NCBI GenBank assembly: GCA_003162875.1
Contig: PLUT01000108.1
Span: 2,215 to 44,717, forward strand
DNA: 42,503 bases
Direction of reading: 5' to 3'
DNA from: Granulicella sp.
GTDB lineage: Bacteria; Acidobacteriota; Terriglobia; Terriglobales; Acidobacteriaceae
Positions 13,815-28,816 of this stretch are shown here, in pieces (the first letter of the stretch is position 1; every line of letters begins with the position of its first letter). The notes under the pieces were generated by a model, which worked only from the letters and a program-made list of their open reading frames with translations, was not told where the DNA came from and searched no databases. The position numbers and the translations under genes are program-made.

Positions 13815-14612
13815 ATGACGTTCAATGAGCATGGTGGATTCGACGGACTCGATGAGAACATCAGGACCTATTCGGCTGCAGCCAATGGTGACGACCCTGC
13901 GGATGGATATGGCAACAGCCCCTTCGACGATGATGAGGAAGAAGAGGAGGTCGTCGTGGCGATGACCTCGGATGACGACGAGGATCTCGATCAGCTGGAG
14001 GATGAAGTCGACGACCTGCTGCGAAGCGCGTCTCATATTGAGGCGGCAATCATCGTGGCGGCTCCGCCGTCGCCGGCAGCAGGCTATACGCCCGCGGCGA
14101 AGCCTTCGAAGGTTCCCGAGAAGAGCACTGCGCCTCCCGCGCCAAAGAAGGCTGCGAAGAAAGCGTCGCCCGCGAAGAAAGCTCCAGCGAAGAAGGTTCC
14201 TGCGAAGAAAGCAAAGAAGGCCAAGAAGAAGGTAGCGATTAAGGCGGTTGCCAAGAAGGCCGTCAAGAAAGTGGCCAGGAAGGCCGCCAAGAAAGTGGTC
14301 AGGAAGGCCGCCAAGAAAGTGGTCAGGAAGGCCGCCAAGAAGGTGGTCAAGAAGGTTGCCAGGAAGGCGGCCAAGAAAGCTGCCAAGAAAAAGACATTGA
14401 AATCTGCCGCGAAGAAGGCGAGTGCTCGGCGCGGCGGTAAGGCCGCTTTGAAGAAAGCGGTCGGCAAGAAGAGCACTTCAAGAAGCAAAAAACCCAATAC
14501 GAGAGGTACTACCTTGGCAACTAAGAAAGCAGCAAAGAAGGCAGTCAAGAAGGCAGTCAAGAAGGCCCCAGCAAAGAAGGCTGCAAAGAAAGTCGCGAAG
14601 AAGAAGAAGTAG
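13815..14612 (+). CDS. Histone H1-like Lys/Ala repeat protein with acidic N-terminal segment
   Basis: FDDDEEEEEVVV...DDDEDLDQLEDEVDDLL followed by ~150 aa of KKAAKK/VVRKAAKK repeats. Confidence 0.85.
   Translation: MTFNEHGGFDGLDENIRTYSAAANGDDPADGYGNSPFDDDEEEEEVVVAMTSDDDEDLDQLEDEVDDLLRSASHIEAAIIVAAPPSPAAGYTPAAKPSKVPEKSTAPPAPKKAAKKASPAKKAPAKKVPAKKAKKAKKKVAIKAVAKKAVKKVARKAAKKVVRKAAKKVVRKAAKKVVKKVARKAAKKAAKKKTLKSAAKKASARRGGKAALKKAVGKKSTSRSKKPNTRGTTLATKKAAKKAVKKAVKKAPAKKAAKKVAKKKK
14271..14342 (+). repeat. 24-bp coding tandem repeat, three copies (GTGG[C/T]CAGGAAGGCCGCCAAGAA[A/G])
   Basis: Copies at 14271, 14295 and 14319 with 1-2 nt differences; a degenerate fourth follows. Confidence 0.9.
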
Positions 14613-15364: not shown

Positions 15365-16342
15365 TCACAGAGATGTCTCAGCGGATTCCGCAACGACGGC
15401 GATGCCGACGCGGTCGGCAGCCGCGATGATGGCCGCGGCGTCGAACAGCAGCGTTGCGCCGGCCTGGACGGCGAGGCAGGTGGCGCCCGCCCGCGCCATG
15501 GCTTCAATGGTCGCGACGCCGATGACGGGCACGTCGAAGCGCATGTCCTGGTTTGGCTTGGCCACTTTGACGACGGTGAGCGAGCGGCTGAGGGTGGAAG
15601 CCGGGTCATTCAGGCGGCGCATCAGCGCGCCGGCACGTTCGATGGTGGCGTCGGTGCCTTCCATGGCTTCGACGGCAACGCAGGCCTGCGCGGCGATGAC
15701 GACGGTTTGACCGAGATCGTACTTCGCCAGGGCACGAGCAACCGTCTGACCGTAGGCGATGTCGTTGCGCTCATCTTCGGTGGGCGCGCGCTGGGTGAGG
15801 ACGCCGGGTTTGGCCAGCAGCGGCTCGAGGTAGTGGGTGGAGGAGATGAGTTCGATGCCTTCGTCCGCGAGGACTTTGGCGACCGCGCCGAGCAGCATGT
15901 CGGTATTCCGCGTGCGCAGGTTGAGGAGCAGTTTTGCGAGGCACCAGTCGGGGCGGATGGAGGAGAATATCTGGGTGTGCTTGACCTGGCCGGCCATTAC
16001 GGCTCGGGTGACGCCTTCGGCCTGGAAGGTTTCGATGAGGCGGGAGAGTTCGCCGAGCGACAACCAGTGGACCTGGATGGAGGAGTCGGCGGCGGCGCGG
16101 GCGTCGATCTCGGGGTCGGTCTCTTCCTTGATGGCGGCAACGACGACCGAAAGACCGTGGGCGCGAGCGGCGTCGAGCAGCAGGAACGGGAAGCGCCCGT
16201 TGCCGGCGATGAGGCCCAGGCGTTTTGCGCTGTCCTCGACCGCCTCGCGGTGAGAGTTGCCGGGTTGTGGGGATGGTTCCGGGGGGGGGAGGGGGTGGTA
16301 CCCCCCTATGATCTTGCGGGGAACTGATTGAGAATCAGTCAT
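15365..16342 (-). CDS. lpxI: LpxI family UDP-2,3-diacylglucosamine hydrolase; N-terminus overlaps a dispersed repeat
   Basis: LGLIAGNGRFPFLLLDAAR...HWLSLGELSRLIETFQAEGVTRAVMAGQVKH...ALMRRLNDPASTLSRSLTVVKVAKPNQDMRFDVPVIGVATIEAM. Confidence 0.9.
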   Translation of the reverse strand: MTDSQSVPRKIIGGYHPLPPPEPSPQPGNSHREAVEDSAKRLGLIAGNGRFPFLLLDAARAHGLSVVVAAIKEETDPEIDARAAADSSIQVHWLSLGELSRLIETFQAEGVTRAVMAGQVKHTQIFSSIRPDWCLAKLLLNLRTRNTDMLLGAVAKVLADEGIELISSTHYLEPLLAKPGVLTQRAPTEDERNDIAYGQTVARALAKYDLGQTVVIAAQACVAVEAMEGTDATIERAGALMRRLNDPASTLSRSLTVVKVAKPNQDMRFDVPVIGVATIEAMARAGATCLAVQAGATLLFDAAAIIAAADRVGIAVVAESAETSL

Positions 16343-16415
16343 TTGTCGGCACCGCCTGTACCCAAATATAAGAATGCAAATGGGTTAGTCGCAAAATCGA
16401 GAAAACAAAGGGGTT
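16281..16415. repeat. Composite dispersed element copy A: G/C tract (16281-16306) plus 25-bp units at 16362-16386 and 16391-16415
   Basis: Units CCAAATATAAGAATGCAAATGGGTT and GCAAAATCGAGAAAACAAAGGGGTT; matches copy B at 23405-23490. Confidence 0.7.
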
Positions 16416-16801
16416 CGCGGGAGCGGGCGTGGCTGCGAAGCGAACTTGTTTAGAGCCAGTTGTTCGGAATCTGCCCATCCGGCTGCTCTCCAGGTAAAAT
16501 GCAGAAACTAAATTTCTTATTGCTTCAAGCGCGACGTCGACGCGGCGTCGCGGGCATACTTCCCCTACTCTTTAAATTGTACGCTTTTTGAATAACTCGA
16601 CTGACACCTCTATTTCTTTTTGATTCAGTTAGATAGGCTATTTGGGGGCTTGACATGCGAATTTGCTGGGTCTTTTGGAAATATATTCTATAAGTGGCTG
16701 TTACGAAATTGTTTAGCAAGGGTGGGCGGAGCCCCGTCGCGTTTGAACCGTCGAACCAAGAACCGGAGATGTGGGGCACCCGGCGATTCGTTATTGCGGT
16801 A

Positions 16802-21722: not shown

Positions 21723-21748
21723 AGCTAGGCGTGCGGGAACGAAATGCG

Positions 21749-21777
21749 GGGATTCTTCACTGCGTTCAGAATGACAA
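21749..21777. repeat. Degenerate dispersed repeat GGGATTCTTCACTGCGTTCAGAATGACAA
   Basis: Shares the TTCAGAATGAC end with the elements at 22394 and 25006. Confidence 0.55.
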
Positions 21778-23404: not shown

Positions 23405-23490
23405 TACCCCCTCCCCCCTAAATGCGCATAATCTTCAAAACAAATGACTTAGGATGCAATATCTTGTAAACACATGGGTTACCTGCAAAG
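23405..23490. repeat. Composite dispersed element copy B: C tract plus 25-bp units at 23426-23450 and 23456-23480
   Basis: TACCCCCTCCCCCCTA then GCATAATCTTCAAAACAAATGACTT and GCAATATCTTGTAAACACATGGGTT, period 30 bp. Confidence 0.75.
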
Positions 23491-23641
23491 CGCTCCATCC
23501 ATTGCAGTTAGACGCGGCGGCGGGTGCAGACGCGACTGATGCGTGGTGGAAATGTTTTGTGGAAGCCCCTGTATCTATTGTAGTCGGGGTGTCAAGGGGA
23601 ATGGGGGAAATGGGGGTTGGGCGCGTCGAACCCTCGAGGGG

Positions 23642-24976: not shown

Positions 24977-25005
24977 GCGATAAAAAGGGCAAGGCAACTA
25001 CGGAG

Positions 25006-25028
25006 ATTCTGACTCTTCGAGTCAGAAT
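25006..25028. repeat. Perfect hairpin ATTCTGACTC-TTC-GAGTCAGAAT
   Basis: Compensatory C:G to T:A change relative to 22394-22416. Confidence 0.9.
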
Positions 25029-25046
25029 GACGAGCAATGAGGCGGG

Positions 25047-28702: not shown

Positions 28703-28778
28703 GGCGGGCAAATGGTTTACCTCCCGCATCAGGAGCGATGGGCCGCGCATGGCGAGCAGCCGCGCGGAGGAAACCGCA

Positions 28779-28816
28779 GGTCCTTCGACTCCGCTGCGCT
28801 CCGCTCAGGATGACAA
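28779..28816. repeat. Dispersed repeat GGTCCTTCGACTCCGCTGCGCTCCGCTCAGGATGACAA
   Basis: Homologous to 24943-24976. Confidence 0.8.

Follow-up and report, generated by a model that had tools for sequence, protein, structure and literature searches.

A dispersed composite intergenic element of Acidobacteriaceae and its probable diverged copies in a Granulicella contig

Two sites with similar short repeats lie in the window, the whole stretch of 42,503 nucleotides from Granulicella sp. that was analysed. Inspection of the sequence revealed two 25-bp units at 16362-16386 and 16391-16415 with a pitch of 29 bp, followed on their lpxI side by GGTACCCCCC and then by a G9AG5 tract, exactly where the sequence-only reading had located them. 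The matching arrangement it had described at 23405 is real as well and consists of a C5TC6 tract with boxes starting at 23427 and 23456. With up to three mismatches, the consensus of the 25-mers was found twice in the window compared to 0.00 matches expected from shuffled sequences, and the family profile gave E=2.9e-9 at 16302-16427 and E=2.4e-7 at 23454-23525. Each site also contains a third box, inverted in copy 1 and direct and degenerate in copy 2 (~23485-23511), and both copies reach rightward to a TGTCAAG motif (~16650-16676 and 23586-23597, respectively). A sigma-70 scan of the window showed no promoter at the expected place. The window copies may be decayed, given that a terminator-like hairpin was not found in either of them. 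Their parts are collected in Table 1.

Table 1. Parts of the two element copies, in window coordinates.
Feature	Position	Strand	Remark
Copy 1, whole element	16281-~16676		beside lpxI
Copy 1, G9AG5 tract, outer part of G/C-tract end	16281-16295	.	CCCCCTCCCCCC on - strand at 16284-16295
Copy 1, GGTACCCCCC, inner part of G/C-tract end	16298-16307	+	profile match starts at 16302
Copy 1, box I (inverted box)	16320-16346	-	profile alignment; 42 bp before box D1, spacing kept in relatives
Copy 1, box D1	16361-16387	+	sequence and profile alignment
Copy 1, box D2	16390-16416	+	29 bp after D1; same spacing in 94 copies of five other genomes
Copy 1, promoter-like AGTTATT..GCGTACAAT	~16578-16600 (approximate)	-	reads toward boxes and lpxI; layout common to most relatives' copies
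Copy 1, promoter-side end with TGTCAAGCCCC	16609-16676	-	common to another copy of the source genome (L110)
Copy 2, whole element	23405-23597	+	86% identity over 193 bp to L115:1446-1638
Copy 2, C-tract CCCCCTCCCCCC	23407-23418	+	motif search
Copy 2, first box, direct orientation	23426-23452	+	sequence and profile alignment
Copy 2, second box	23455-23481	+	consensus match and profile alignment
Copy 2, third, degenerate box	23484-23511	+	inside profile match 23454-23525
Copy 2, promoter-side end CCTTGACA-N7-TACAAT	23577-23597	-	same motif in L009 and L105

Some copies (window 23577-23595, L009 and L105) end with TTGACA-N7-TANAAT, a motif recurrent in the source genome; it resembles a −35/−10 pair whose two halves are much too close for sigma-70.

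The mechanical open reading frame of lpxI (window 15365-16342) has its ATG within the element, at 16342, and continues across the C-tract with its C9 run. Homology to LpxI starts at residue 41 of this frame, and the alignment to relatives begins no earlier than residues 26-41; their start lies just before the LGLIAGNG motif. The proposed overlap of the repeat with the start of lpxI thus holds for the mechanical frame but not for the region of LpxI homology. No in-frame ATG, GTG or TTG was found between the first codon of the frame and the LGLIAGNG motif. Since the frame crosses the C9 run, the length of this run decides whether lpxI is in frame with the ATG at 16342. Either the start lies inside the element, or another codon is used, or the G9 run contains a length error of the draft.

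The element is non-coding, ~200-400 bp long and built in a fixed order. From the promoter side to the tract side it consists of a TGTCAAG end with TGTCAAGCCCC, the pair TGGCRT-N20-TANAAT, a terminator-like hairpin, three 27-bp boxes and the G/C tract. In 60 upstream regions of three genomes TGTCAAGCCCC occurred 54 times and AGTTA-N-TANANT 51 times, compared to 0.1-0.24 per 20 in shuffles for either motif. The −35-like TGGCRT at 20 bp does not have the standard sigma-70 spacing. The first two boxes follow each other at a pitch of 29 bp, shared by 94 of the 96 copies compared in five genomes; the other interval is 40-42 bp and leads to the third box, which can be inverted or direct. Most copies of the window's genus have it inverted, those of G151 have it direct, and both orientations occur in G088. 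The boxes exhibit only weak dyad symmetry, and the hairpin between promoter part and boxes is variable. In G151 the copies are highly alike and the layout is legible by eye: TTGGCAT-N20-TAAAAT, a GC-rich hairpin and three boxes ending with GACGATTTT, then GGGGGGAGGGGGG. An extra partial box match was observed ~130 bp past one element of G021 (L181:2270-2325). In the source genome, L105:1290-1467, L108 and L114 carry a second C-tract with box-like sequence ~170 bp leftward, resulting in a larger tandem composite.

Copies were counted with R1, a sequence-only profile built from relatives; as a limited number of candidates was scored, all counts per genome are lower bounds. The source genome, a draft of 4.8 Mb, contains at least 26 matches, at least 15 of them at E<1e-3, and its relatives at least 89 (G002), 89 (G014), 58 (G007) and 45 (G021). 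The genome-wide excess, whose absence had been set as refutation of the sequence-only reading, is present, and the repeat itself lies far above chance. A strict pattern without mismatches gave zero matches in the source genome, because it is too demanding for the diverged boxes of this lineage. Relatives carry the same 25-mer in the same surroundings. Within Acidobacteriaceae the profile detected the element in 51 of 150 genomes and 32 of 79 sampled genera, and it also occurs in 30 sampled genomes of the window's genus. One genome each of three other families (f2, f3, f4) gave no match. In a scan of named genomes, repeated matches were confined to Granulicella, Edaphobacter and other Acidobacteriaceae, and single chance-like matches were found elsewhere. 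A search for plasmid carriage gave no match; that for viral carriage gave four single-box matches and no whole element. Such an element in Acidobacteria is not described in the open-access papers searched, so it is apparently new to the literature.

All copies examined lie between genes, and the genes beside them share no common function. Neighbour directions were obtained from a simple codon-based gene caller. Among codirectional neighbours one orientation is favoured 38 to 8 (p=9e-6). Each of the 20 copies classified in G014 and G002 points to the start of the gene that follows, with the G/C tract often 10-60 nt before the start codon. The fixed polarity toward gene starts proposed earlier is thus true of these two genomes and fails in the source genome, where polarity is mixed and the gene on the tract side was called in either direction. 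In G021 at least six copies are placed directly after the stop codon of an opposing gene (Pfam-supported), a position from which that gene cannot be driven. The genes ending near the tract there encode glutamate synthase, Nramp, GH88, M48 peptidase, SDR and ATP synthase c; promoter action on the next gene is therefore not a general rule.

The element has been copied to new places. The paralogue of copy 2 (L115:1446-1638) matches it over 193 bp at 86% identity, and as the flanks are unrelated the ends are sharp, with TACCCCC on one side and TGTCAAGG on the other. A second paralogue pair extends over 359 bp at 82% identity. Between the genes of the DUF202-DUF503 pair the element is present in seven genomes, and in G216, itself rich in copies, the two genes are only 7 bp apart. 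The earlier suggestion of a structural repeat or degenerate mobile element came close: profile counts and paralogues describe a dispersed, copied, composite intergenic element.

These data bring to mind a purely selfish, MITE-like dispersed repeat without host function, whose conservation would reflect nothing but spread and family consensus. Filled and empty orthologous sites, copies beside unrelated genes and the copies at 3' ends in G021 speak for it. However, neither of the two marks of a transposon end was found in 76 copies. Comparison of one end with the reverse complement of the other gave a local score of 5.53 versus 5.71 for shuffled sequences, and the longest word shared by the flanks was 3.26 versus 3.31 with swapped flanks. 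With terminal inverted repeats and target duplication both tested and not found, the element is not a MITE by definition. The strong orientation bias argues against mere selfish spread as well, as does conservation. Six orthologous pairs were found between samples of 20 copies each from G014 and G002, in which the promoter part (69-84% identity, five pairs) and the boxes (64-82%, six pairs) are conserved, compared to 35-57% for the hairpin letters and 23-35% for the upstream flank. Orthologous copies are thus kept between species and are more alike (0.71-0.78) than paralogues (0.59), though their flanks cannot be aligned. We consider the selfish reading improbable. Judged from these pairs, many copies are old, and the best reading of the alignments is that the element is partly kept by selection. 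In G049 the element upstream of the DUF503 gene (L280:1164-1303) is reversed and farther off than in other genomes.

Somewhat less probable still is a regulon, in which a global regulator would bind the boxes as its operators and its target genes would have the element in common as promoter-leader, moved by nothing but ordinary rearrangement. The fixed box pitch, the genome-wide box consensus and the position of the tract shortly before start codons in G014 and G002 fit well. At the DUF503 gene the element persists in 13 of 30 loci, even where the upstream gene differs. In contrast, neighbours without a common function, copies after stop codons in G021, paralogues with sharp ends and the restriction of the lpxI copy to the source genome are not expected from such a regulon.

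A structured RNA, either a riboswitch-like leader or a small RNA with pairing between inverted and direct boxes, is very improbable. In its favour, an inverted box faces a direct one, a hairpin is conserved before the boxes, and the G-tract could form pairs with C-runs in the boxes. Pairing would predict that a box fits those of its own copy better than those of other copies; this is not so, pairing within copies not exceeding that between copies of the same genome, and an RNA stem of inverted and direct boxes was therefore rejected. RNAalifold agrees, with a covariation term of +0.2 for the consensus fold and two-sided changes almost only in the small hairpin. Further, G151 and part of G088 have the third box in direct orientation, and no match to 4227 Rfam families was obtained for the window and 21 element loci.

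An iteron-like operator of lpxI, as proposed from the sequence, or a replication-type array is suggested by direct repeats of fixed pitch adjoining this gene and can practically be dismissed, since copies adjoin unrelated genes, the element occurs at 1 of 30 lpxI loci, that of the source genome, and copies are evenly spread over two complete chromosomes without origin or strand bias, which also rules out a chromosome-structure or replication signal.

We therefore favour, with fair but not high confidence, the reading that a non-coding composite element is dispersed in Acidobacteriaceae, with the two window sites as diverged copies; it would carry a transcription module with a shared box-binding protein and be copied in trans. 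RNA polymerase would start at the TANAAT motif and proceed across the hairpin and the boxes in the direction of the tract. For a next gene of the same sense, the usual case in G014 and G002, the element would supply both the promoter and the 5' leader. Transcripts arriving from the other side would be ended by the hairpin and its T-run, potentially resulting in a one-way transcription module. Because the boxes do not covary within copies, they are probably bound by protein and not paired in an RNA stem. One protein binding all copies would be the simpler reason for the fixed pitch and the genome-wide consensus; if this shared protein co-evolves with the boxes in each lineage, box sequences would be alike within a genome and different between genera. 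Copying in trans would require an agent leaving neither terminal inverted repeats nor target duplication. Several results speak against this reading: the spacing of TGGCRT and the sigma-70 scan of the window, the G021 copies behind opposing genes, the mixed polarity in the source genome and the hairpin missing from both window copies. Neither a transposase nor any other gene recurs next to 96 copies, and an autonomous partner adjoining them was therefore rejected.

A more far-reaching proposal can be made only tentatively, namely a family-wide class of element that contains a complete one-way transcription module, spreads with neither terminal repeats nor target duplication and is recognised by its own box-binding protein. 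In Acidobacteriaceae the copies would then make up a hidden regulon spanning the genome. Members of this family are abundant soil bacteria whose gene control is little known, and a conserved element of fixed build in dozens of copies, all of which one protein may bind, offers a concrete handle; some copies are kept upstream of central genes (fabF, serA and the DUF503 gene). The element also represents a dispersed bacterial repeat with a mode of copying at odds with the usual transposon ends.

Several known systems can be compared. BOX elements of Streptococcus pneumoniae are modular interspersed intergenic repeats of distinct boxes, with many copies and no association with gene function (PMC3049150). 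The modular boxes, intergenic position, copy number and missing link to gene function are shared, whereas here box number and pitch are fixed, a promoter-like part and a G/C tract are added, and the phylum is different. A stem-loop through the outer modules is predicted in BOX, in contrast to the element, where no fold through the boxes is supported. The likeness is one of architecture alone and implies no sequence relationship. Correia elements of Neisseria belong, with other MITEs that bear promoters, to the short non-autonomous repeats; they contain promoter motifs and frequently lie immediately upstream of genes. Correia elements can carry a binding site for the protein IHF, and terminal inverted repeats and target duplications are the distinguishing marks of MITEs (PMC10969869). 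The promoter motifs are common to both, and so is the MITE feature of dispersal with filled and empty orthologous sites (paralogues with unrelated flanks; DUF202-DUF503), but the terminal inverted repeats and target duplications searched for here were not found. BOX and Correia elements thus resemble it in kind, without its being a member of either group (PMC3049150, PMC10969869). REP and BIME sequences are extragenic and of high copy number as well, REPs being palindromes of 20-40 bp (PMC3733652), compared to a composite of 200-400 bp with weakly dyad-symmetric boxes. RNA families in Rfam share the non-coding, intergenic nature.

Two further features of the window were observed. A protein of 265 aa without Pfam match (window 13815-14612) is acidic at its start and has a long tail of Lys/Ala repeats similar to the DNA-binding tail of histone H1-like proteins. 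Short stretches at 24991-25033, 28772-28816 and 21737-21776, e.g. GATTCTGACTCTTCGAGTCAGAATGACGA, recur at 92-98% identity in other contigs of the source genome and apparently represent another dispersed repeat family.
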